Made by a program: the position numbers and the translations under genes. Below are positions 11,166 through 50,708 of a stretch of DNA of 64,000 bases, piece after piece. Under the pieces are notes generated by a model that saw only the letters and a program-made list of their open reading frames with translations, had not been told where the DNA came from and searched no databases. Every line of letters begins with the position of its first letter. Position 1 is the stretch's first letter. The DNA lies in assembly GCF_020622065.1 (NCBI RefSeq), contig NZ_JAHRYQ010000001.1, positions 310,001 to 374,000 of the forward strand. Reading direction: 5' to 3'. This stretch comes from Geothrix sp. Lineage in GTDB: Bacteria; Acidobacteriota; Holophagae; Holophagales; Holophagaceae.

Positions 11166-13529
11166 TTGACCGCACCGACCTCATCCATCCGCCGCAAGGT
11201 GATCACGCTGGTCCTCGCCACGACGACCACGGCCCTGCTGCTCTCGGCCCTGGCCTTCCTGGGGTATGAGGGCTACGCGCTGCGGCGGGCGGCGGCCCAG
11301 GATCTGCAGGCCCTCGGGGAGATCATCGCCTACAACACGGCACCCTTCGTGGCCTTCCACGACGGGGGCCCGGCCACTCAGATTCTCGAGAGCCTGAAGA
11401 CGCACGGCCACATCGCCCGGGCCCAGGTCCACATGGCTTCGGGGGAACTGCTGGCCTCGTACCCGGCGGATGGGCGCCCCGTGGTCATCCACCCGCTGGA
11501 CGCCGCCCGCGACCGGGTCTGGTTTTCCGGGGGCCGCATCGAGCTGACGAAGCTCGTCCACAACCCGGAAGGGCAGCCCACCGGCTTCGTCTTCCTGTCC
11601 TCGGACATGAGCCACCTGAACGCACGCCTGGTCCTGGCGAGCCTGTTCCTGGCCGGCATGCTGCTCCTGATCGGCCTCGTGGTCGCGACCTTCGTCCGGC
11701 GCTGGGCCCGGGTGATCACGGAGCCGGTTCTGGAGCTCGCGGGCGTCGCGTCGCGGGTATCCACCAGCCGGGACTACAGCCTGCGGGCCCAGTCCCGTTC
11801 CGATGATGAGCTGGGGGCCCTGATCGGGGCGTTCAACGGGATGCTGGAGCGCATCCAGGAGCAGGACCGCCACCTGGCCGAGCACCGCGGCCAGCTGGAG
11901 GAGCAGGTGGCCACCCGCACGGGCGAACTCGTCCGGACCAACAACGAACTGCTCATCGCCAAGGAGCGGGCCGAAGTCTCCAATCGTGCCAAGAGCACCT
12001 TCCTGGCGAACATGAGCCACGAGCTGCGCACACCCCTCAACGCCATCCTGCTCTACAGCGAGCTGGTGCGCGAGGACTCCGAGGCCGCGGGACACGCCGA
12101 GATCCTGCCGGATGTGCGCCGCATCGAGTCCGCCGGGCGCCACCTGCTGAGCCTCATCAACGACATCCTGGACCTTTCCAAGATCGAAGCCGGGAAGATG
12201 ACCGTCTCCTGCGAAACCTTCGATGTGCCGGGCATGATCCGCGATGTCCTCGCCACCGTGGAGCCCCTGGCCGCCAAGAACGGAAACTCGCTCCATTTCA
12301 CCTGCGCTCCTGATGTGGAGGAGATCCACTCGGATGCGATCAAGGTGCGGCAGTCCCTCTTCAACCTGCTGAGCAATGCCTGCAAGTTCACCCGGGAGGG
12401 CCACATCGAAGTGCGGGCCGCCGTGGATCCCTTGCCGGGCTCGGAGACTCCTTGGCTTCACCTCTCCGTGGAGGACACGGGCATCGGCATCAGCCCGGAT
12501 CAGCTGCAGCGGATCTTCAGCGAGTTCATCCAGGCGGAGGAAGGCACCAGCCGCCAGTTCGGCGGCACGGGGCTGGGCTTGGCCCTCAGCCGCAAGTTCT
12601 GTCAGATCCTGGGCGGCGACATTCGCGTCCGGAGCGAGGCGGGCAAGGGCTCGGTCTTCACCATGCTCCTGCCCCTGTCGCCCCCGAAGGCGCCGCCGGC
12701 CCCTGAGCCGGCTTCCACCCTTGGCGGGCTGAGCGGGCAGGGCACGCCGGCGGCCAGTTTGCCGAGGGGCCCAGTCCTGCTCATCGACGACGACCCGACG
12801 CTCCTGGAGGCCCTGTCCCGGCTGCTGGCCCGGGACGGCTACGAGGTTCGGATGGCCCAGAACGGCGCCGAGGGGCTGCGCATGGCCCGGGAGTTCCACC
12901 CGGGGATCATCGTGCTGGATGTGATGATGCCCCTGATGGACGGCTGGGAGGTGCTGAAGGCCCTCAAATCGGATCCGGTGCTGGAACCCATCCCGGTCGT
13001 GATGCTCACGATCCTCGATGAGGTCGAGCGGGGCCTGGCCCTGGGGGCGGCGGAGTATCTCTTCAAGCCCATCGACCGGGCCCAGCTCACGGGGGTGCTC
13101 CTGAAGTTCCAGCCGTCCTCGCCCCCCTTCCAGGTGCTCGTGGTCGAGGACGACCAGGCGACCCAGCACACCCTGCGGCGGATCCTGCTGGCCGAGGGCT
13201 GGGAGTCCCGTTCAGCCTCCGATGGCGCCGAGGCCCTCGACCTTCTGCGGGAAGGGGTTCCGAACCTGATCCTCCTGGACCTGATGATGCCGGGCATGGA
13301 CGGCTTCGATTTCCTGGCGGAGAAGCAGGCGAACCCTGAGTGGGCGGGTATTCCAGTGGTGGTCCTGACCGCCCGGGAACTCGGGACCGCCGAGCAGGAG
13401 CGGCTGCGCCGTAGCCAGGTGGCGGCCGTGATGCAGAAGGGCCTCTACACCAAGGGAGAACTGGTTGAGGAAGTTCAGCGCACCATCCGCCGGAGTACTG
13501 CCCTGATGCCGGAAGGGGGGCGAGCATGA
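11166..13529 (+). CDS. Membrane hybrid sensor histidine kinase with CHASE8-like sensor and two receivers
   Basis: 787 residues from a TTG start with GGAG seven bases upstream. Order: TM1 (about 12-34), a periplasmic segment of about 120 residues resembling CHASE8 (LGEIIAYNTAPFVAFHD, then ARAQVHMASGELLA), TM2 (about 155-178), HAMP (about 180-232), a coiled coil, HisKA with H285 in SHELRTPLN, an ATPase domain with DTGIGISPDQL and GTGLGLALS, then two receivers with phospho-acceptors D585 and D705. It follows the YfiR-like gene by 60 bases and overlaps the next receiver by four. It likely turns a periplasmic or outer-membrane cue into a phosphorelay. Confidence 0.9.
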   Translation: MTAPTSSIRRKVITLVLATTTTALLLSALAFLGYEGYALRRAAAQDLQALGEIIAYNTAPFVAFHDGGPATQILESLKTHGHIARAQVHMASGELLASYPADGRPVVIHPLDAARDRVWFSGGRIELTKLVHNPEGQPTGFVFLSSDMSHLNARLVLASLFLAGMLLLIGLVVATFVRRWARVITEPVLELAGVASRVSTSRDYSLRAQSRSDDELGALIGAFNGMLERIQEQDRHLAEHRGQLEEQVATRTGELVRTNNELLIAKERAEVSNRAKSTFLANMSHELRTPLNAILLYSELVREDSEAAGHAEILPDVRRIESAGRHLLSLINDILDLSKIEAGKMTVSCETFDVPGMIRDVLATVEPLAAKNGNSLHFTCAPDVEEIHSDAIKVRQSLFNLLSNACKFTREGHIEVRAAVDPLPGSETPWLHLSVEDTGIGISPDQLQRIFSEFIQAEEGTSRQFGGTGLGLALSRKFCQILGGDIRVRSEAGKGSVFTMLLPLSPPKAPPAPEPASTLGGLSGQGTPAASLPRGPVLLIDDDPTLLEALSRLLARDGYEVRMAQNGAEGLRMAREFHPGIIVLDVMMPLMDGWEVLKALKSDPVLEPIPVVMLTILDEVERGLALGAAEYLFKPIDRAQLTGVLLKFQPSSPPFQVLVVEDDQATQHTLRRILLAEGWESRSASDGAEALDLLREGVPNLILLDLMMPGMDGFDFLAEKQANPEWAGIPVVVLTARELGTAEQERLRRSQVAAVMQKGLYTKGELVEEVQRTIRRSTALMPEGGRA

Positions 13530-13906: not shown

Positions 13907-15111
13907 TCCATGGAAATCCAGCCCGCCTGCTCGTGGTCGATGACGCGGATTCCAACCGCGAGGTGATGACCCGCATCCTCGAGCGCGAGGGCCATGAGGT
14001 GGCCACGGCCGTCGACGGCGCCGAGGGGCTGGCGAAGCTCCGCAGCGGGAGCTACGACCTGGTGCTCCTGGATGTGATGATGCCGGGCATCGACGGCATC
14101 CAGGTGATCCAGGTCATGCATGAGGATGAGCGGCTCAAGCGCATTCCCGTGATCATGCTCTCCGCCCTCCACGAACAGGAGACGATCCTGAAGTGCATCC
14201 AGCTGGGGGCCCAGGACTACCTGCCGAAACCCATCAACCAGCAGCTCCTCAAGGCCCGCATCGCGGCCAGCCTGGAGAAGAAGCGGCTGCAGGACCTGGA
14301 GCTGCAGTACACCCAGCAGGTGGAGTCCATCAGCGCCCAGCTGAAGGCGGCCAATGAGCAGCTCCTTCGTGCCAACCAGCTGAAGAGCCGTTTCCTCGCC
14401 ACCGCGGCCCACGACCTGAAGAACCCACTCGGCGGCATCGTCCTGCTTTCCGACGGCATCCGCATGGAGGCCGAGGCGGGAGGCTCCTACGCCCGCATCG
14501 CCACCCAGGCGGGGCGGGTCCACGATGTGGTCCAGAAGATGGTCCACATCATCAACGGCCTGCTGGATGCGACCGTCCAGGAGGTGGGCGAGGTGAGCCC
14601 CTGCTTCGAGATGACCGACTTGGGCGACCTGATTCGTCGCGTGATCCAGGAAAACGAGCTCTATGCGGCGAGCAAGGACATCCGCCTCCATGGCCCGGCA
14701 CCCGCCGCGAGGTGCCAAGGCTCCGTGGACGGCACCCGGCTGGCCCAGGTCATCGACAACCTCGTGAACAACGCCATTAAGTACTCCCCCGGTGGTCGCG
14801 AAGTCCGGGTGGAGCTGGGCCTCCAGGTGACCGGCGCTGGGCGCCGGGCCCGCATCGAAGTGCGCGACCAGGGGCCTGGTTTCACGCCCGCGGACCTGGA
14901 GAGGGCCTTCGAACCCTTCCAGCGGCTCTCCGCCCTTCCCACCGGCGGCGAATACAGCACCGGGCTCGGTCTTTCCATCGTCAAGCAGATGGTCGAGCTG
15001 CACGGCGGCCAGGTCTGGATCGAAAGCGAACCTGGCCAGGGAGCGGCCTTCGTGGTGGAGATCCCGCTGGTGGAGGAGGGCTCTAGGGACAGAGGCCCCC
15101 ATCCACATTGA
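13903..15111 (+). CDS. Soluble receiver-histidine kinase
   Basis: 402 residues: an N-terminal receiver (acceptor D57 in LLDVMMPG, lysine in LPKPI), a coiled coil (about 125-160), a HisKA domain with H170 in AAHDLKNPL, and an ATPase domain with DQGPGF and STGLGLSIV. There is no membrane segment. The gene overlaps the lone receiver by four bases upstream, and its 3' end overlaps the convergent SDR gene by 29 bases. Receiver-first kinases of this form commonly take phosphate or signal from another kinase, which fits a multi-step relay with the two genes before it. Confidence 0.92.
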   Translation: MIHGNPARLLVVDDADSNREVMTRILEREGHEVATAVDGAEGLAKLRSGSYDLVLLDVMMPGIDGIQVIQVMHEDERLKRIPVIMLSALHEQETILKCIQLGAQDYLPKPINQQLLKARIAASLEKKRLQDLELQYTQQVESISAQLKAANEQLLRANQLKSRFLATAAHDLKNPLGGIVLLSDGIRMEAEAGGSYARIATQAGRVHDVVQKMVHIINGLLDATVQEVGEVSPCFEMTDLGDLIRRVIQENELYAASKDIRLHGPAPAARCQGSVDGTRLAQVIDNLVNNAIKYSPGGREVRVELGLQVTGAGRRARIEVRDQGPGFTPADLERAFEPFQRLSALPTGGEYSTGLGLSIVKQMVELHGGQVWIESEPGQGAAFVVEIPLVEEGSRDRGPHPH

Positions 15112-35659: not shown

Positions 35660-35785
35660 GACACAGCTCGACATCTCTCCGCGGTTGATTGCTCAATCGC
35701 GGCAGGAATTGGCACCTTGCTTTCGCAGGTTGCCAAGGTTTCACAGGGCCCGTCCCTCCACCTTTCTGGATAACTCGCTATGGAA
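35660..35785 (-). ncRNA. SAM-I (S-box) riboswitch upstream of metY-metA-lysC
   Basis: On the minus strand the conserved core reads AGAAAGGTGGAGGGAC, GGCCCTGTGAAACC, TTGGCAACC and GGTGCCAATTCC in the S-box order, with variable P3 and P4 hairpins in place. A strong intrinsic terminator follows at 35613-35640. By analogy with other S-boxes, SAM binding favours the terminator. End points are approximate because the outer P1 helix pairs imperfectly in my reading. Confidence 0.92.
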
Positions 35786-42261: not shown

Positions 42262-42385
42262 GTTCGGTATCTTCCCCCCGGGCAATGCCGGGGGCAGGAG
42301 TTGGCACCTTGCTTTCGCAGGTTGCCAAGGTTTCACAGGGCCTTTCCCTCCACCTTTCTGGATAGCGCTATCGGACTGCCAAAGA
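42262..42385 (-). ncRNA. SAM-I (S-box) riboswitch upstream of the MTHFR-fusion operon
   Basis: The core is nearly identical to that before metY: GGTGGAGGGA, GGCCCTGTGAAACC, TTGGCAACC and GGTGCCAACTCC on the minus strand. The P4 region differs (CCCCCGG-CATTG-CCCGGGGG) and P1 can form between CGCTATC and GATACCG with one mismatch. No hairpin with a T tract follows before the start codon, so control may be by another mechanism, for example at translation. Confidence 0.9.
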
Positions 42386-42395
42386 TCGAGGGGAC

Positions 42396-42425
42396 AGCAT
42401 GCGCTGGGGGGATGGCGACCGTCAA
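42396..42425 (-). promoter_or_regulatory. Candidate promoter of the second SAM-riboswitch operon
   Basis: TTGACG (42420-42425, minus strand) overlaps the stop codon of the upstream glycosyltransferase gene; CATGCT (42396-42401) follows after 18 bases. The -35 is near consensus, the -10 is weak. Confidence 0.35.
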
Positions 42426-43852
42426 GCTTCGGGGGGCTTCGGGGCCGGGTGCGTGGTGAGGCCCAGGCGCTTCAGGTGCCCCCATTGATCCTTCCCGCGG
42501 ATCCAGTCGAGGGTGCCCCGTAGTCGCCACCAGAGGGTCAGCTGGCGGTAGCCGAAGTTCTCGGCCACGGCGAGGAGCAGCAAGATGCTCCAGGCCTTGA
42601 GGCCCTGGTAGCGGTGGCTGCTGATTTCGTGGAGCACCACGGACACCACGGAGTTCAACACCCCGAGCAGGAGGGCGACATAGAAGAACAGGAGGGCGAA
42701 GGTGCCGCCCACGGAATGGGTCCAGAGGGAGCTGGCGAACACGAGGTAGCCGGCGACCTCGATGACCGGAGCCAGGGCCTCGAAGACGAGGAAATAGGGC
42801 ATGGAGAAGATCCCGATGCGGCCGTACTTCGGGTTGAAGCACATGCGCCGGTGCCGCCAGATGGTCTCGAGCATGCCCCGCTGCCAGCGGTTGCGCTGGC
42901 GGCCCAATTCCCGGAAATGTTCGGGAACCTCGGTCCAGCACACGGGATCCGGCACCAGGGCGATGTGGTAGGGGCGCTTCCAGTCCCTCAGGCAGCGGTG
43001 GAGGCGCACCACCAATTCGAAGTCCTCGCCGATGGTGGCCGTGTCGAACCCACCCGCGGCCACGACCAGGTCCTTCCGGAAGACGCCGAAGGCGCCGCTG
43101 ACAATGAACAGGGAGTCCAGCGATGCCAGCCCCACCCGGGCGAAGAGGAAGGCCCTCAGATACTCCACGATCTGGAACCGGGCCAGCCAGGAGTCCGGGA
43201 GGTAGATGCCGCGGATGCCCATGGGCGTGACCTTGCAGCCGTTCACGGGCCGGACCACGCCGCCCGAGGCGATCAGGTCCGGCCGGTCCATGAAGGGCCG
43301 CGCGATGCGGAGCAGTGCGTCGTTCTCCAGGAGGCTGTCCCCGTCCATGCAGCACACCAGGGGATACCGGGCGAGGTTCACACCACAGTTCAGGGCGTCC
43401 GCCTTGCCGCCATTCGCCTTGTCCACCACCACCAGGTTGGGCACATAGGCGCTTTCGTAGACGCCGAGCACCTCTTGCGCGGGGAGCAGTTGGCGGATGA
43501 CGCGGTGGCTGGGCTGGAGCTTGAAGGCGGTGATGAGCCGTTGGAGGGTGGCGTCCGTGCTCCCGTCGTTCACCACCACCACCTGGAACTCCGGGTAGCG
43601 AAGGCTGACGAGGCTGTTGACGCTCGCCACCACGCCGGCTTCTTCGTTGTAGGCCGGACAGATCAGGGACATGGGTTTGAAGTGGCTGGACTCGAAGGCC
43701 GTGTCGAGGCGATCGGTTTCGGCCTCATCCAAGTGCCGCCGGATCGAGAAGAAAGCCCGGAGAATCAGCCCCAGGTGCGTGAGGTTCATGGCCAGGAAAT
43801 AGGCGAGGATGCCCCACTGGGCGAAGGCGGTGACGAACACGCGGAAGCTCAC
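42422..43852 (-). CDS. Processive GT2 glycosyltransferase (polysaccharide synthase)
   Basis: 476 residues. One N-terminal membrane helix (about 10-32) precedes a GT2 domain with the processive-synthase motifs D170-G-D172 (CMDGDS), GED at 275-277 and QRNRW at 319-323; two to three helices follow (about 340-420). The order matches PgaC/hyaluronan/cellulose-synthase-like enzymes, so it probably polymerises a polysaccharide at the inner membrane and moves it across. The start is a GTG overlapping the HEAT-gene stop (GTGA). No PilZ domain is present. It is the last gene of the minus-strand half of a divergent exopolysaccharide locus. Confidence 0.9.
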   Translation of the reverse strand: MSFRVFVTAFAQWGILAYFLAMNLTHLGLILRAFFSIRRHLDEAETDRLDTAFESSHFKPMSLICPAYNEEAGVVASVNSLVSLRYPEFQVVVVNDGSTDATLQRLITAFKLQPSHRVIRQLLPAQEVLGVYESAYVPNLVVVDKANGGKADALNCGVNLARYPLVCCMDGDSLLENDALLRIARPFMDRPDLIASGGVVRPVNGCKVTPMGIRGIYLPDSWLARFQIVEYLRAFLFARVGLASLDSLFIVSGAFGVFRKDLVVAAGGFDTATIGEDFELVVRLHRCLRDWKRPYHIALVPDPVCWTEVPEHFRELGRQRNRWQRGMLETIWRHRRMCFNPKYGRIGIFSMPYFLVFEALAPVIEVAGYLVFASSLWTHSVGGTFALLFFYVALLLGVLNSVVSVVLHEISSHRYQGLKAWSILLLLAVAENFGYRQLTLWWRLRGTLDWIRGKDQWGHLKRLGLTTHPAPKPPEA

Positions 43853-44922
43853 AGGTGACCCCGCTCATCCGCCCATTCGAGCCGCTCCCGCGCGATGTCC
43901 CGGGCGAAGCGATCCGCCGACGAATCCTCGGCGATCCAGGTCAGTGCCGAGACCCCGGCCCGGCCGAGATCCACGAGGCTCTGGGCCGCATTCCGGCGCA
44001 CTTCGAACACGCGATCGGCCAACAGGGGGAGGAGGGCCGGAATGGCGGAGGGCCCCCCCAGCACGCCCAGAGCCCGGGCCGCCTGGGTGCGGATCTCCCA
44101 GACGGGGCTGGAGGCGAAGGGCAGCACCTTGGGATAGATGGTCGGGTCCGCGAGGATGATGAGCGACTTCAGGACCGAGACCCGGAGATTCACATGCGGG
44201 ACCTCCAGCAGCCAGAGCAGGCGGGGCTGGGAGTCCCGGTGCCGGTGGGAACCGACCAGCAGCGCGAAGAGGATCCAGGGTTCCGGGTTTTGGTCCGGGG
44301 ACTCGAGGTGGTCTTTCATCCAGGGCAGCAGGCTGGGGCCGAAACCCTCCAGGACCCGCAGCAGGCGCTCGCGCTGGTAGACCTCCTCGCGCATGACCCA
44401 GGCGAGGACGGGGCTGGCGAAACGCAGGTCCTGGCTGTGCGTGAGGGTCCGGGCCGCCACATGCGCCACATAGGGGACCGGATCGTCGAGGAGGGGCAGG
44501 ACCAGGTTGAGGTAGCCCTCGATGCGGACGCCCGGGTTCCAGCGCCAGGGCCGGTCGGCGACGGGCGGGGGCGGGGTCCCAGTGAGTTCGTCCAGCCGGA
44601 AGGCGCCGATCTCCTGGGCGGCCATGGCCCGGACCCGGGGGTCCCGGCTCCGGAGGCGGCGGGGGAGGGAGAGGTGGATGTCCAGGCCCAGGTAGAGCTG
44701 GCGGAGGACTTCGGACTCCTGGCCGGCGAGCGTGGACTGGTAGCGGGCCAGGAAATTCCGGAAGAGCCAGCGGTCGGCGTGTGGGATGGGCCCGAAGGAG
44801 CCGCGCTCGTAGCCACCCTTGAAGAGGTAGTCCGTCAACTGGACTTCCCAGGCCTGGTAGCAGGCGATGCGATGGCGGTTCTGGCGGTCCCGGCGCACCT
44901 GCAGAATGGCCCCGACCAGCAC
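43849..44922 (-). CDS. HEAT-repeat protein, probably membrane-anchored
   Basis: 357 residues from the GTG at 44920-44922. HEAT/PBS-lyase-like helical repeats are visible, e.g. DPVPYVAHVAARTL, SSPVWEIRTQAARALGVLGG and DRVFEVRRNAAQSLVDLG. The frame remains open upstream to the receiver stop at 45007 and there encodes GATVILLSLVAGL, which completes a membrane helix with the first residues of the annotated protein. The real start may thus be a rare codon upstream (CTG or ATC), since no ATG/GTG/TTG exists there. It lies between the receiver and the synthase genes and may scaffold or regulate the synthase. No enzyme motif seen. Confidence 0.7.
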   Translation of the reverse strand: MLVGAILQVRRDRQNRHRIACYQAWEVQLTDYLFKGGYERGSFGPIPHADRWLFRNFLARYQSTLAGQESEVLRQLYLGLDIHLSLPRRLRSRDPRVRAMAAQEIGAFRLDELTGTPPPPVADRPWRWNPGVRIEGYLNLVLPLLDDPVPYVAHVAARTLTHSQDLRFASPVLAWVMREEVYQRERLLRVLEGFGPSLLPWMKDHLESPDQNPEPWILFALLVGSHRHRDSQPRLLWLLEVPHVNLRVSVLKSLIILADPTIYPKVLPFASSPVWEIRTQAARALGVLGGPSAIPALLPLLADRVFEVRRNAAQSLVDLGRAGVSALTWIAEDSSADRFARDIARERLEWADERGHL

Positions 44923-45006
44923 CAGGCCGGCGACGAGGCTCAGCAGGATGACGGTGGCCCCATGCAGAGCGGGAAGGAAAAGGTCCTGGGACAGGGGAAA
45001 GATGGA

Positions 45007-45411
45007 TCACCCCGCCCGGCGGGAGCGTTCGAAGAGGCGCCACAGCCGTTCCATGAGCACCTGCACGGAGATCGGCTTGGTCATGTAGTCGTCGGCCCCG
45101 GCCGCGAGGCAGCGGACCATGTCCTGTTCATTCTGGTTGCTGGAGATGAGCAGGATGGGGGTGCGCCCTTTGGGGGCCGGGAGGTCCCGCACTTCCTGCA
45201 CCAGCCGGAATCCGTTCATGGACGGCATCATGAGGTCGGTGGTGATGAGATCGATGGCTTCGCGGTTCAGGATCTCGAGGGCTTCCACGCCATTGAGGGC
45301 CACGAACACCTTCAGCCCCTCCATCTCCAGGCGGGCCTGAATGATCCGGGCGGTCGTGAGGTCATCTTCGACCACCAGGACCGTGGTATGTTCTGGCCAG
45401 CGTCGGCTCAT
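45007..45411 (-). CDS. Single-domain response regulator of the exopolysaccharide locus
   Basis: 134 residues, CheY-like: acidic pair in LVVEDD, acceptor aspartate in TTDLMMPS, and lysine in MTKPIS. There is no output domain. Its stop is in the same frame as the HEAT-repeat gene that follows. It heads the minus-strand operon with the HEAT protein and GT2 synthase and probably controls polysaccharide production by protein contact. No cognate kinase gene is adjacent. Confidence 0.92.
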   Translation of the reverse strand: MSRRWPEHTTVLVVEDDLTTARIIQARLEMEGLKVFVALNGVEALEILNREAIDLITTDLMMPSMNGFRLVQEVRDLPAPKGRTPILLISSNQNEQDMVRCLAAGADDYMTKPISVQVLMERLWRLFERSRRAG

Positions 45412-45544
45412 GAAAAAAGTCTAGCAAGATATGAATCAAACCTGTCGATTTCCATGGATTAGGAGCACCTGGTTCCACCATGACCCGAGGATTCCACGCC
45501 CCCATCCAGGACTGCATCCGCCCATGGGACGGAGTCGCCCATCC

Positions 45545-46456
45545 ATGAGCTTCCTGTCGTCCATCCGAGCGATCGCCTGGGGGTTCTGCTGCGCAGTCCT
45601 GGCCGGCCAGTCGCTGTCCATCACCTTGGACGATGGTCCCAACCTCAGCTCGACTCCGCGGCTCTCGGGCGATGAACGGAACCGGCGCCTGCTGGAGGCC
45701 TTCCGGGAGAAGGGCGTGCGCGTGGTCCTCTTCGCCAACGGCATCCGCGGCGGAGACAGTCCGGAGGGGATCCGGTGGCTGGAGGCCTGGGGCAAGGCGG
45801 GCCACCGCATCGGGAATCACACTTACGGCCACCCCAACCTCGAGGAGATCGGCCTGGCCCGATTCAAGGAGGATGTGGTTCGCCTGGATCGCCTGATCCG
45901 CGGCGTGCCGGGCTACTGGCCCATGCTGCGGTTCCCGTACCTGCGCGAGGGAAGGGCGGGGGTGGAGCGGCGAGCCGCCCGGGCCATGCTGAAGGACCTG
46001 GGATACGGCGTCGCGCCGGTGACCATCCCGACCTACGACTGGCTCTTCAATGAGCGTCTCCAGCAGCTGCTGCAGGCCCGGCCCGATGCCGACATCGCGC
46101 CCATCCGGGCCCTCTACCTGCGGCACCTGGACGAGGTCCTCCAGGGCTACCGCGACCTGGGTGACCGGCTCCTCGGCAAAGATCCCGTCCACACGCTCCT
46201 CCTCCACCACAACCTCCTGAACGCCCTCGTCATGCCGGACCTGCTCCGCATGCTGGACGCCAACGGCTGGAAAGTGGTGGGTCCGGAAGAGGCCTACCGG
46301 GATCCCATCTACGCGGAGGACCTGTCGGCCATGGGCTACAGCGAAAGCCACCTCGGCTCCCTGGCGCGGAAGCGCGGCATGTTCGTGGTGGAGGTCCAGC
46401 GGCTGGAGGCCCTGCTCGAAGGTGGGAAGACGGCCCTCAAGGAGGTCGCGCCATGA
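45545..46456 (+). CDS. Secreted NodB-type polysaccharide deacetylase
   Basis: 303 residues from the ATG of MSFLSSIRAIAW, which gives a proper signal peptide; further ATGs upstream would not. The NodB motif 1 is TLDDGPN (D29/D30) and the metal histidines are H92 and H96 in HTYGHP. RFPYLREG provides motif 3. It would remove N-acetyl groups from an amino-sugar polymer in the periplasm, as PgaB does for PNAG. It overlaps the next gene by four bases (ATGA). It is the first gene of the plus-strand half of the divergent locus. Confidence 0.88.
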   Translation: MSFLSSIRAIAWGFCCAVLAGQSLSITLDDGPNLSSTPRLSGDERNRRLLEAFREKGVRVVLFANGIRGGDSPEGIRWLEAWGKAGHRIGNHTYGHPNLEEIGLARFKEDVVRLDRLIRGVPGYWPMLRFPYLREGRAGVERRAARAMLKDLGYGVAPVTIPTYDWLFNERLQQLLQARPDADIAPIRALYLRHLDEVLQGYRDLGDRLLGKDPVHTLLLHHNLLNALVMPDLLRMLDANGWKVVGPEEAYRDPIYAEDLSAMGYSESHLGSLARKRGMFVVEVQRLEALLEGGKTALKEVAP

Positions 46457-49020
46457 CCCTGGCCTGGCTGCCCATCTGCCTGGCCCTGGCCGGTCTCCTC
46501 CAGGATCCCGCCGAGGGCCACCGGCTGCTCCGGGAGAATCGCCTGGAAGCGGCCCGGAAGGCCTTCGACGCCGTCCTGGCCAAGGCTCCCCAGGATGTCG
46601 ACGGCCTGGTCGGGGCCGGCTTCACGGCCCTGCGCCAGGAGCGCATTCCGGAAGCCCTGGCCCATTTCCAGAGAGCGCTGTCGCTGTCACCCACCTATGC
46701 GGATGCCGCCTACGGCCTGGCGCTGTGCCAGGAACGCCTGGGCAGAACCGCCGAGGCCCGGCGCCTGGCGAAGGAGGCGGTGCGCCTCGACCCGGCCCGC
46801 GAGGACTTCCAGGCCCTTCTGGTCCGGGTCTCCCCGATGGAAGACTCGATCCCACCCCTTCCGCCCCTCCCCGCGGAGCTGCGGGTGCCCTTCCGCAGCG
46901 TTCCGGCCGGATTCCAGGTCCGCGATGGGGCGGGCTGGAAGGCTGTCTACCTGAAGGGGGTGAACCTGGGCGCGGCTCTGCCGGGGCGGTTCCCCACGGA
47001 ATTCCCGGGCAAGGAGGTCTATGCCGGATGGCTGACGGAGATGGGGCAGCTCGGGATCAACGCCCTCCGCCTCTACACCATCCACCCCCCGGCCTTCTAC
47101 GAGGCCCTGCGGGAGCACAACCTCAAGGCGGCGCACCCGATCTATGTGCTGCACGGCGTCTGGGTGGAACCTCCGCCCGGGGACGACTTCGGCGATCCCG
47201 CCTGGTTTGCGGCCTACCGCGAGGACATGCGGCGCGTGGTGGACCTGATGCACGGTCGCGCCAGCTTTCCGCCCAGGCCGGGGGCCGCCGGGGGGCACTA
47301 CCGTGCGGATGTGAGCCGCTGGTGGATCGGGACGATCCTGGGCCGGGAGTGGGAGCCCTTCAATGTCATCGCCTACAACCGGCGGCATCCGGGTGAAGCC
47401 GACTGGAAGGGCCGGTTCGTGGAGGTGCGCCGGGCCCACGCGACGGAAGTCTTCATGGCCAAGGCCCTGGACGCCTTCATCGGCCTCGAGCACGACACCT
47501 ACCATGTGCAGCGCCCGGTGGCCTTCACCAACTGGCCCACGCTGGATGCCATCACGCATCCCAGCGAGACCTCGTTCATCGAAGAGCAGCGGATCCTGAA
47601 GAAACTCGGCCTGCCCTACACAGAGGAAGTGAAGTCGGAAGTCTTCGACGACGACAGCGTGTCCATCGACATGGAAAAGTTCTCGGATCTCCCGGCGTTC
47701 CGGGGGGGGCTGTTCGCGAGCTACCATGTCTATCCTAACTATCCCGAGTTCATCAACCTCGACGCCGGGTACGCGAAGGCCCGGGATGAGGAGGGGCCCA
47801 ACAGCTACCTGGGATATCTCCAAGAGCTCCGGGCCTACCACAAGAAGCACGCCGTGCTGATATCCGAGTTCGGGCTCAGTTCCTCCCGCATGCCGGCCCA
47901 TTGGCAGCCCCAGGGCATGACCCACGGGGGCCTCGAGGAGAAGGACCAGGCCCGCCTGATGAAGCGCCTGATCCGGAACATCTACGACACGGGGTACGCC
48001 GGGAGCATCGTCTTCGCCTGGATGGACGAGTGGTTCAAGAAGACCTGGCAGGTCTCGCCGATCGAATTGCCGCCCGAGCGGAAGCCCCTCTGGTTCAACG
48101 CCATGGATGCAGAGGAGAACTACGGGTTGATCGGACATCATCCCGGAACCAAGGGGCCGAACATCCTCATCGACGGCCGGTCCGACGACTGGAAGAACAT
48201 CCTCACCTACCTCAAGAACGAGACCCTGGAGGTGAAGCTCTTTGCCGATGAGGGCTGGTTCCATGTGGGCCTCTTCTGGAAGGGGCCCGTCGACTGGAAC
48301 CGCGATGCCTTCCTGCTGGGGCTGGACACTCTGGGGCCGGACCTGGGCAACCACCACTTCCCCTTCGGTGTCCCCGTGCGGAACGGCGCGGGAATGGAAT
48401 TCGCTTTGGAACTGTCTGCGAAAGGCTGCGGCGTCTGGGTGGATGCCCCCTACGAGTTCTCCCCCCACCGCCACCCGGGCCCTTCCCGCACCATCGCCCA
48501 TGAAGACGGCCCCTGGCGCCAGATGCAGACGGAGACCAACCGCCTGCGGGTGGGGCAGGACCTGACGGTCTACCCGGCCCGCCGCTACGACATCGGAACC
48601 CTGCACCGGGGGACCCAGGACCGCCGCGATCCCGCCTTCGATTCGCTCGGTGAATGGATGGATGGCCCCGGGTTCCTGGAAGTCCGCATCCCCTGGACGC
48701 TGATCCATGTCACCGATCCGAGCTCACGGCGGGTGCTCCAGGATCCGGCGGACCTGCTTTCGATGGAGGACCACGGCTCGGTGACCACCGACGGATTCCG
48801 CGCCAGCCTGGTGCGGACGAGCCGGAAAGGGCCCGAGGGGCCAGTTGAGGTCATCGAGACCCTGCCCGCCGCGAACCGGAACGGCATCCCCCTTCCTCCC
48901 CTCTTCACCTGGCCCACCTGGGAGCAGCCCCGCTGGCATCCTTTCCGGAAGAAGGCCTTCGAAGCCGTCCGGGATGCCTTCGCCGCCCTTCCGGCCCAAC
49001 CCAAACCGAGCGCGCCATGA
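46453..49020 (+). CDS. TPR / glycosidase-like fusion protein, secreted
   Basis: 855 residues with a short signal peptide (MTLAWLPICLALAGLLQ). TPR units occupy about 20-130. A (beta/alpha)8-type domain follows (about 150-540): E299 in LGREWEPF and E472 in ISEFGLSS sit where clan GH-A enzymes have the acid/base and nucleophile. The C-terminal 290 residues look like a beta-sandwich carbohydrate-binding or family-9-like domain (ILIDGRSDDWKN at its start). I cannot name the GH family. It is overlapped by four bases on both sides, so it belongs to the deacetylase-exporter operon and may trim or process the polymer. Confidence 0.7.
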   Translation: MTLAWLPICLALAGLLQDPAEGHRLLRENRLEAARKAFDAVLAKAPQDVDGLVGAGFTALRQERIPEALAHFQRALSLSPTYADAAYGLALCQERLGRTAEARRLAKEAVRLDPAREDFQALLVRVSPMEDSIPPLPPLPAELRVPFRSVPAGFQVRDGAGWKAVYLKGVNLGAALPGRFPTEFPGKEVYAGWLTEMGQLGINALRLYTIHPPAFYEALREHNLKAAHPIYVLHGVWVEPPPGDDFGDPAWFAAYREDMRRVVDLMHGRASFPPRPGAAGGHYRADVSRWWIGTILGREWEPFNVIAYNRRHPGEADWKGRFVEVRRAHATEVFMAKALDAFIGLEHDTYHVQRPVAFTNWPTLDAITHPSETSFIEEQRILKKLGLPYTEEVKSEVFDDDSVSIDMEKFSDLPAFRGGLFASYHVYPNYPEFINLDAGYAKARDEEGPNSYLGYLQELRAYHKKHAVLISEFGLSSSRMPAHWQPQGMTHGGLEEKDQARLMKRLIRNIYDTGYAGSIVFAWMDEWFKKTWQVSPIELPPERKPLWFNAMDAEENYGLIGHHPGTKGPNILIDGRSDDWKNILTYLKNETLEVKLFADEGWFHVGLFWKGPVDWNRDAFLLGLDTLGPDLGNHHFPFGVPVRNGAGMEFALELSAKGCGVWVDAPYEFSPHRHPGPSRTIAHEDGPWRQMQTETNRLRVGQDLTVYPARRYDIGTLHRGTQDRRDPAFDSLGEWMDGPGFLEVRIPWTLIHVTDPSSRRVLQDPADLLSMEDHGSVTTDGFRASLVRTSRKGPEGPVEVIETLPAANRNGIPLPPLFTWPTWEQPRWHPFRKKAFEAVRDAFAALPAQPKPSAP

Positions 49021-50708
49021 TCTTCTTCCCGTTCCCGGCCACCCTTCAAGCGGCCCCGACCCCCAGCGACGCCGAGATGGGCCGGCTGCTCACTCAGGCC
49101 CGACAGGCGCGGAACCAGAGCCACTGGGACGAGGCGATCAAGGGCTACGATGCCTTGCTGGCCAAGGATGGCTGGCATGAGACGGCCCTCTTCGAACGGG
49201 CGCAGACGCTGGGATGGGCCCAGCGGTATCCGGAGTGCGTGACGGCCTGGCGCCTCTTCCGGGAACGCGCGCCCTGGCGGGCCCGGGAAGCGGACCAGAA
49301 CCTGGCCATGATGGCGAGCTGGGGGCGGATGTTCGAGGTGGCCCTCACGACCCTGGAGCCCTATGCCCAGAAGGGCGAGCGCTGGGCCATCCTCGACAGC
49401 GCCAAGTACCTGAGCTGGGCTGGCCGCTACCGCGAGTCGCTGGCCCGCACCTCGACCTGGATCACCGCGCATCCGAAGGATCGGGATGCCCTCCTCATGC
49501 AGGCCCGCGTGCTGAGCTGGGATGGCCGCCTGAAGGCGGCCCACGGGGCCTTCCAGCAACTGGTGGCCCAGCATCCCGATCTGGGGGACGCCCGTCTGGG
49601 GCTGGCCCAGGTGTCGCTGTGGAGCGGCCGGGTCGAAGAGGCCCGGGTGGAGGTGGACCGGCTGCCCAAGGAGACCCGCGAGACGCCCGAAGGGAAGCTC
49701 CTGGAAGGGCAGGTCCGCCTGGCGGAAGGCCGCCGGCGCGCGGCGCTGGCGCAGCTGACGCCGCTGGCCCGGCAGGGCAGCCCCGTGCAACGGGACGCGG
49801 AGGACCTGATCCGGGCCGCCGCCGAGACGAACGGCCCCTCGGCGGAGATCGGCCAGTCCCGCACCCTCACCAGCGAGCCTCTGCGCATGCTGGACAGCTT
49901 CGTGCGCGCCAAGGTGCCCCTCGGGGACGGCAGCATCGGCCTGAGCCACACCCTGCACCATGCGGAACTGAGCGGCGCGGAATCCGATGCCCGCGAAACG
50001 GCCGCCACCGTGGCCTACCCCCTGGGGCCGCTGCGCCTCTCGGCCGACCTGGGCCGCATCACGGGGCTGGATGGGGATCCCGCCGGATTCCACCGCCTGG
50101 GCCTCCTCTGGCGGCTGGGACATGGCGCGGAGGTGAACCTGACCCAGAGCCGGAGCGTGATCGTCTTCACGCCCCAGGCGGTGGCGCAGCGGGTCGGCAT
50201 CCAGGCCACGGACCTGGCCTTCACCCTGGCCGGCTTCGCGGATGTCCTCCGGCTCCAGGGCGGAACCGCCACCGTCTCCGCGGGGAACCGCCGGACCACC
50301 TGGAGCGGCGCCTATGAGCACCGTTGGCGCCTCTCGCCCGTCACCCTGTCCGCCGGCCTCACCAGCCGCGGCATGGGCTATTCGGAAACGCTGCCGCTCG
50401 GCTTCTGGAACCCGAGGCACTACCTCTTCCATGGCGCCACGGGCAGCGCGGCCTTCGAGCACGGCCGCTTCGCCTTGTCGGTGGAGGGGCGCTGGGGGCG
50501 CCAGGTGACGGATCAGCAGGCCTGGACCACCGGCAAGGGCTACGCCGCGAACCTGAGCTGGGGCCTCGGGCGCAGTCCCATCACGCTGCTGCTCGGCTGG
50601 TCCGACAGCACCTCGGGCCTGAACGCGGTGAGCGTGACCGACCCGAACACCTATCGCGAGCAGAGCTTCCGCTGGGGCCTCCGGGTGGCCGGTCCCTGGC
50701 GCTGGTAG
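49017..50708 (+). CDS. TPR / outer-membrane beta-barrel exporter (PgaA/BcsC-like)
   Basis: 563 residues. After a weak signal peptide, TPR-type helices fill about 20-270 (DEAIKGYDALLAKDGWHETAL, ARVLSWDGRLKAAHGAF). The last 290 residues alternate in short amphipathic strands (VAYPLGPLRLSADLGRITG, LTLSAGLTSRG) and end in aromatic WRW, as in barrel proteins. The TPR-then-barrel order is that of PgaA and BcsC, which carry exopolysaccharide across the outer membrane. It overlaps the glycosidase-like gene by four bases and is last in the operon. Confidence 0.8.
   Translation: MIFFPFPATLQAAPTPSDAEMGRLLTQARQARNQSHWDEAIKGYDALLAKDGWHETALFERAQTLGWAQRYPECVTAWRLFRERAPWRAREADQNLAMMASWGRMFEVALTTLEPYAQKGERWAILDSAKYLSWAGRYRESLARTSTWITAHPKDRDALLMQARVLSWDGRLKAAHGAFQQLVAQHPDLGDARLGLAQVSLWSGRVEEARVEVDRLPKETRETPEGKLLEGQVRLAEGRRRAALAQLTPLARQGSPVQRDAEDLIRAAAETNGPSAEIGQSRTLTSEPLRMLDSFVRAKVPLGDGSIGLSHTLHHAELSGAESDARETAATVAYPLGPLRLSADLGRITGLDGDPAGFHRLGLLWRLGHGAEVNLTQSRSVIVFTPQAVAQRVGIQATDLAFTLAGFADVLRLQGGTATVSAGNRRTTWSGAYEHRWRLSPVTLSAGLTSRGMGYSETLPLGFWNPRHYLFHGATGSAAFEHGRFALSVEGRWGRQVTDQQAWTTGKGYAANLSWGLGRSPITLLLGWSDSTSGLNAVSVTDPNTYREQSFRWGLRVAGPWRW

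Follow-up and report, generated by a model that had tools for sequence, protein, structure and literature searches.

A candidate exopolysaccharide secretion locus of Geothrix with a receiver-HEAT-GT2 core that recurs in distant bacteria and archaea

Introduction

Where synthase-dependent polysaccharides are controlled post-translationally, cyclic di-GMP (c-di-GMP) is frequently involved, as stated in a paper on Myxococcus xanthus (PMC12802240). Here we describe a six-gene locus in which a HEAT-repeat protein and a stand-alone receiver occupy the regulatory place. It lies at 42422-50708 of a 64,000-nucleotide stretch (the window) from Geothrix sp. (Acidobacteriota, Holophagaceae; RefSeq assembly GCF_020622065.1, contig NZ_JAHRYQ010000001.1, positions 310,001 to 374,000 of the forward strand), and encodes a glycosyltransferase family 2 (GT2) synthase, the HEAT protein, the receiver, a polysaccharide deacetylase, a glycoside hydrolase-like (GH) protein and an exporter with tetratricopeptide repeats (TPR) and a barrel.

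Among described systems, pgaABCD of Escherichia coli, which makes poly-N-acetylglucosamine (PNAG), similarly combines a GT2 synthase, a deacetylase, a glycosidase function and a TPR plus barrel exporter. It differs in that the deacetylase and glycosidase of the window are on separate genes, the glycosidase being of another family, and in that the HEAT protein and receiver stand in place of PgaD and c-di-GMP; the curated models also fall below cut-off. The bcs cellulose system has a periplasmic glycosidase and, in BcsC, the best fold match to the exporter, but the window GT2 scores far below cut-off with the CelA model (38.5 bits against 699.1), and neither a PilZ match nor, with Pfam and NCBIfam models, a BcsB match was found in any of the six proteins. 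The yaiO-yaiP-yaiS genes of E. coli K-12 also bring GT2, deacetylase and barrel genes together, and YaiO occurs in sister cassettes of the window's relatives; no HEAT protein or receiver is annotated there, however, and the window barrel has no PF19413 match. In M. xanthus the stand-alone receiver EpsW has been proposed to contact the phosphoglycosyl transferase EpsZ when phosphorylated and so to activate it, a similar post-translational role for a receiver in exopolysaccharide synthesis, although this is a Wzx/Wzy pathway with a phosphoglycosyl transferase, and "HEAT repeat" has no mention in the available part of the source (PMC12802240). NELoc-2 of Clostridium perfringens is described as a locus that encodes a glycosyltransferase and a polysaccharide deacetylase together with a membrane HEAT protein, a possible likeness; no receiver, exporter or synthase pair is presented in the part of the source available (PMC11677781).

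No description of the receiver-HEAT-GT2 gene set was found in a literature search that covered titles and the beginnings of abstracts, long result sets in part, and left most subscription papers and bioRxiv preprints outside. The available parts of PMC10778927, PMC12419801 and PMC3174227 say nothing on the gene set, and that of PMC7112194 had no occurrence of the searched term.

Results

Composition of the Geothrix locus

All six genes are present where the preliminary description had placed them, with the receiver, HEAT and GT2 genes on the reverse strand and the deacetylase, TPR/GH and TPR-barrel genes on the forward strand. The GT2 gene (42422..43852, -) encodes a processive-type polysaccharide synthase of 476 residues (PF00535/PF13632/PF13641) with hydrophobic segments near both ends and the residues D, DxD, ED and QxxRW, which we take to be the processive-GT2 motifs. 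In an alignment of 22 rows from Acidobacteriota, other bacteria and one archaeon these residues are invariant (22/22), with the exception of E276 (21/22). The HEAT gene (43849..44994, -; PF13646/PF02985) carries one strong N-terminal membrane helix, which the listed GTG start at 44922 would remove. Because the frame is open from the receiver stop and the helix is kept in relatives, we place the start upstream, at either a CTG near 44994 or an ATC at 45003. The helix is followed by a basic stretch and, by the positive-inside rule, the HEAT repeats should be in the cytoplasm. Next to it lies the gene for a stand-alone receiver of 134 residues (45007..45411, -; PF00072, E 7.6e-28), with phosphoacceptor D59, D16/D17, S90 and K112.

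The divergent region between the receiver and the likely deacetylase start (45412..45544) gave no sigma-70-like site in a promoter scan. Beyond it are genes for an exported carbohydrate esterase family 4 (CE4) deacetylase (45545, the likely start, to 46456, +; PF01522), in which TLDD and HTxxH are seen, a periplasmic TPR protein with a putative clan GH-A-like glycosidase region and a beta-rich C-terminal part (46453..49020, +), and a TPR superhelix with a 16-strand outer-membrane barrel (49017..50708, +); in the last two, Pfam matches are to TPR models. Overlaps of 4 bp link GT2 with HEAT, deacetylase with GH, and GH with barrel, as had been noted for each half, and the proposal that the locus is one unit agrees with relatives that carry it on a single strand. 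A processive GT2 with its motifs and membrane segments is accompanied by a TPR plus outer-membrane barrel exporter, as in synthase-dependent secretion generally, and the domain matches and exporter fold bear out the proposed set for synthesis, modification and export.

Two S-adenosylmethionine (SAM) riboswitches lie in the window, at 42264-42368 (-) with 82.1 bits and at 35668-35776 (-) with 75.9 bits. The former separates GT2 from the next gene, which is metF-like (named by eye), and so the operon of the core probably ends at GT2.

Predicted structures of the envelope proteins

The model of the exporter (predicted local distance difference test, pLDDT, 87.9) has sixteen TPR-type helices followed by sixteen strands. 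Its best PDB matches by Foldseek are E. coli BcsC, the barrel 4y25 (template modelling score 0.81 by target) and PelBC; we take 4y25 to be PgaA, the entry title being polysaccharide outer membrane secretin. The PgaA-like architecture is found by fold and not by the PgaA equivalog model (18.2 bits, cut-off 366.65).

From residue 145 on, the GH protein aligns (VIA-align) with GH5 mannanases, Gas2/Gel4 (presumably GH72) and GH157 at Z 18.3-18.9, with rmsd 3.7-4.2 over about 275-306 aligned residues of a model whose pLDDT is only 61.8. E299 is kept in 20/22 rows and E472 in 21/22, the exceptions being the second Paenibacillus copy and a Planococcus protein that is without both; on the model, these residues could be the acid/base and nucleophile of a putative TIM barrel. 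No glycosidase family is among the 25 listed of the 30 Pfam families matched by 22 GH members, those listed being repeat-type or weak, and a GH relative without TPR (L032) has no Pfam family match.

The core across Acidobacteriota and beyond

With a GT2 profile (A3) at E 1e-100, 77 of 396 Acidobacteriota genomes gave 82 places, all of which were examined: the window, 17 other Holophagaceae loci and 64 others. A HEAT gene adjoins GT2 in 17/17 and 61/64 of these respectively, against 1/35 control GT2 loci (a weak match, L242; five controls from the window's own genome and 30 from the phylum). The exceptions among the 64 are L193, on a 3.2-kb contig, L221 and L222; when the 12 loci used in the profile are left out, the count is 49/52. 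The figure of 61 includes L166, where HEAT and GT2 form one open reading frame (L166:3-1931 (+), 3.3-kb contig), and is 60/64 without it. This single case among 94 loci may be a fusion or a frame error, and was not relied on as evidence of interaction. Searched from the other side, a HEAT profile at E 1e-8 matched 78/396 genomes, some probably through general HEAT proteins; of 22 non-family loci taken from these matches, 20 have an adjoining GT2 (16 with a high GT2 score; L106, L109, L115 and L116 with a low one), and L122 and L132 have none.

Outside Acidobacteriota, plasmid records stood in for whole genomes. A tblastn search of GT2 against plasmids gave 204 records, and 13 were examined, H1 and H3-H14 of the 30 rows listed (H1 and H4 both M. 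ciceri); the rows left out, H2 (another M. ciceri) and H15-H30, rank lower by coverage times identity. In 13/13 of these bacterial and archaeal loci HEAT adjoins GT2 by a profile that had included some of them (scores 44 to 260), and in 11/13 also by the records' own annotation, the Paenibacillus locus being unannotated and the Emticicia gene "hypothetical". Hosts include Mesorhizobium, Erythrobacter, Devosia, Deinococcus, Legionella adelaidensis, Bacteroides, Planococcus, Paenibacillus and Emticicia. The Mesorhizobium locus encodes an ATP-binding protein, two receivers, YaiO, HEAT, GT2 and Hpt, and three haloarchaea have receiver, HEAT and GT2 with no outer-membrane gene. In Halosolutus glmS and a sugar nucleotidyltransferase gene lie beside the core, in Emticicia an LTA-synthase-family gene, and GH relatives are found on the Deinococcus, Paenibacillus and Planococcus plasmids. 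As judged from sequence, the receiver-HEAT-GT2 core recurs in distant bacteria and archaea with interchangeable envelope genes. The six-gene composition, for which a search in other genomes had been proposed, therefore holds in part: its core is widespread, but the deacetylase is not constant, the envelope genes exchange, and the set is not confined to this locus.

On the Planococcus plasmid (L145) HEAT-GT2 is accompanied by CotH and DUF4956, which resembles the NELoc-2 gene list by gene names alone, in the part of the source available (PMC11677781).

Receiver conservation and phosphorelay neighbours

A receiver gene is found no more than 3 kb from GT2 in 17/17 other Holophagaceae, 49/64 other Acidobacteriota and 8/13 plasmid loci. 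Among the 75 nearest receivers, that of the window included, the phosphoacceptor Asp is present in 70, the Lys in 70 and the Ser/Thr in 74. Hpt-receiver-receiver proteins occur beside the cores of L191 and L196, the latter also with a histidine kinase, and two sensor kinases lie near the Haloarcula core, as Hpt does in Mesorhizobium. These residues and neighbours fit the phosphorylation switch that had been suggested; that it would act on the synthase goes a step further, and is our reading of the sequences.

Conservation and exchange of envelope genes in Holophagaceae

The HEAT query matched 14 of 41 genomes, its own included, all within the 25 of the genus, and the GH query 12 of 41. The closest named relative of the GT2 is that of Geothrix sp. 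isolate BP11 (L047; 99% identity). Eleven less close Holophagaceae loci share 63-89% identity with the window in receiver, HEAT and GT2; in a first set of 15 loci the lowest value was 43%, for HEAT (L045). On this conservation the six-gene locus is beyond chance. Where the contig allows, it mostly lies between cysK-transketolase and metF-metH-like genes.

The usual order in Holophagaceae loci with GH or barrel genes is (deacetylase)-GH-barrel-receiver-HEAT-GT2 on one strand. The divergent halves of the preliminary description are real in the window, and elsewhere in the family the deacetylase-GH-barrel block is inverted only in L047, L123 and L058 (a metagenome-assembled genome, with the barrel beyond the contig). 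L047 and L123 hardly differ from the window (GT2 99%), so that the inverted layout represents two lineages. Gene order in relatives indicates that the divergent arrangement arose by inversion at this locus. Some loci outside the family (L177, L191, L192 and L194) likewise carry YaiO or sulfatase genes on the opposite strand. Phase-variable inversion of the block was considered and set aside: none of the 25 longest of 37 inverted-repeat pairs has arms at both block ends, and the orientation differs between species, with no change shown within one.

Identities of core and envelope genes are discordant. Relative to the window, L038 has 83% identity in GT2 with 54% in GH and 40% in the barrel, and L058 83% in GT2 and 63% in HEAT with 85% in GH and 75% in the deacetylase; L128 and L057 share 92% in GT2 and 44% in the barrel, and L057 and L032 83% and 67%. 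The core has therefore had a different history from the envelope genes, and cassette exchange among Geothrix relatives appears the simplest reading of these sequences. Beside the same core an alternative cassette is found, with genes for an unknown protein, a TPR protein, a sulfatase-superfamily enzyme and YaiO (L042:8030-13551, L055, L126, L127 and L129). The 17 other Holophagaceae loci divide into 10 with GH and barrel, six with YaiO and sulfatase, and one with a barrel (short contig); in the 64 loci outside the family, some on short contigs, we count GH plus barrel in 13, YaiO in 19, YaiO plus sulfatase in 4, barrel in 6 and none recognised in 22. The CE4 deacetylase was seen in 4 loci of the first set of 15, and its model matches 2/17 other Holophagaceae loci and 0/64 outside; these counts concern the CE4 family. 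Geothrix fermentans DSM 14018 carries the locus (L050) with no deacetylase gene on the part covered. In relatives the CE4 deacetylase is, on this profile evidence, optional.

Beside the GH-barrel-receiver-HEAT-GT2 locus L057, where no CE4 gene was found, lies a YdjC-type gene (L057:3194-4135 (-)), which we take to belong to a deacetylase family.

Discussion

We consider it likely that the Geothrix locus encodes a synthase-dependent exopolysaccharide secretion system, with an inner-membrane core formed by the GT2 synthase and the membrane HEAT protein and with the stand-alone receiver as its switch. In such a system GT2 would polymerise a nucleotide sugar and extrude the chain. The substrate in this lineage would most likely be an amino sugar such as UDP-N-acetylglucosamine (UDP-GlcNAc), because PgaC is the nearest curated synthase, a deacetylase is present, and Halosolutus has glmS and a nucleotidyltransferase gene. 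The HEAT protein, anchored in the membrane, may serve as cytoplasmic partner or scaffold of GT2. A kinase encoded elsewhere would phosphorylate the receiver, which would dock on HEAT (or on the synthase) and turn synthesis on or off, a role held by c-di-GMP modules in Pga and Bcs; gating through HEAT is our best reading. Once in the periplasm, the chain would be modified or trimmed by the deacetylase and the putative GH-A-type enzyme and exported by the TPR-barrel protein, and the envelope genes would form a cassette exchanged among relatives.

Several observations weigh against this reading. The HEAT gene was not found in 11/25 genomes of the genus, several of them near-complete, and the locus is therefore dispensable. 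The receiver is not obligate: none lies within 3 kb in 15/64 and 5/13 loci, and the phosphoacceptor Asp is lost in 5/75 (L199, L203, L211, L213 and Emticicia). No kinase gene adjoins the receiver in the window, where the nearest of the genome's 53 HATPase matches lie some 30 kb away (12333-12680 and 14728-15069, histidine-kinase-type, the only ones in the window). A GGDEF-receiver protein is encoded next to the L211 core, which leaves room for a part of c-di-GMP in some lineages, and a nucleotide-sugar dehydrogenase gene neighbours the core of L. adelaidensis, which means that GlcNAc may not be the sugar in every case. The GH model is weak, and some of the loci tested with the broader HEAT profile had gone into rebuilding it (a profile from Holophagaceae only gives the same 61/64).

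The preliminary description had likened the locus to Pga, and it might be a divergent Pga/PNAG system that makes the same polymer by the same machine, with HEAT replacing PgaD. PgaC_IcaA is indeed the best NCBIfam match of the GT2, which is 26% identical to PgaC over 353 columns (E 3e-28; YaiP 27%, E 2e-9), and the locus also has deacetylase, glycosidase-like and TPR-barrel genes. The likeness does not hold at the level of curated models, however, the GT2 scoring 136.6 bits against a PgaC cut-off of 422.3 and the exporter falling far short of the PgaA model. PF14883 (GHL13, the PgaB glycosidase domain) has 0 matches in the whole genome, whereas among 14 control genomes E. coli matches; no PgaD model matched in a search limited to the six proteins; and the deacetylase is seldom kept even within the family. 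In a tree of 31 GT2s, PgaC, YaiP, BcsA and five control GT2s group together (95/98) apart from the HEAT-linked GT2s, in a tree with a weak backbone, long E. coli branches and one PgaC only; NfrB falls among the HEAT-linked rows, and the HEAT label requires two changes. Taken together, we regard a divergent Pga system as improbable.

Equally improbable, in our judgement, is that the product is a surface-anchored glycan, or a decoration on another polymer, and not a free exopolysaccharide. The sulfatase-superfamily enzyme and YaiO in the relatives' cassette and the LTA-synthase-family neighbour in Emticicia would suit such a product, but the window exporter has the architecture of BcsC, PgaA and PelB. 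A somewhat better claim, though still a doubtful one, belongs to the idea that the receiver acts as a phosphate sink or within an unrelated phosphorelay, HEAT being an assembly scaffold only, with control exerted by transcription or c-di-GMP. The loci that lack a nearby receiver, the Hpt and multi-receiver proteins beside others and the GGDEF-receiver neighbour are in its favour. Where a receiver is present, however, it is tightly linked and its residues are mostly intact, and the three haloarchaea keep it with HEAT-GT2 where no outer-membrane gene is found.

Returning to the secretion system with the receiver as switch, we also entertain, at somewhat less than even confidence, a broader proposal: that receiver-HEAT-GT2 is a separate and very old class of polysaccharide synthase, common to bacteria and archaea, in which phosphorylation of an aspartate, acting through a HEAT adaptor, replaces c-di-GMP as the gate, and which in diderm bacteria is fitted with interchangeable envelope cassettes. 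A receiver-HEAT-synthase core that is found in Acidobacteriota, in alphaproteobacteria and in haloarchaea would link two-component signalling directly to polymer synthesis, and would account for a large set of unnamed HEAT, GT2 and receiver neighbours. The core would also be small, and amenable to study alone in species without an outer membrane.

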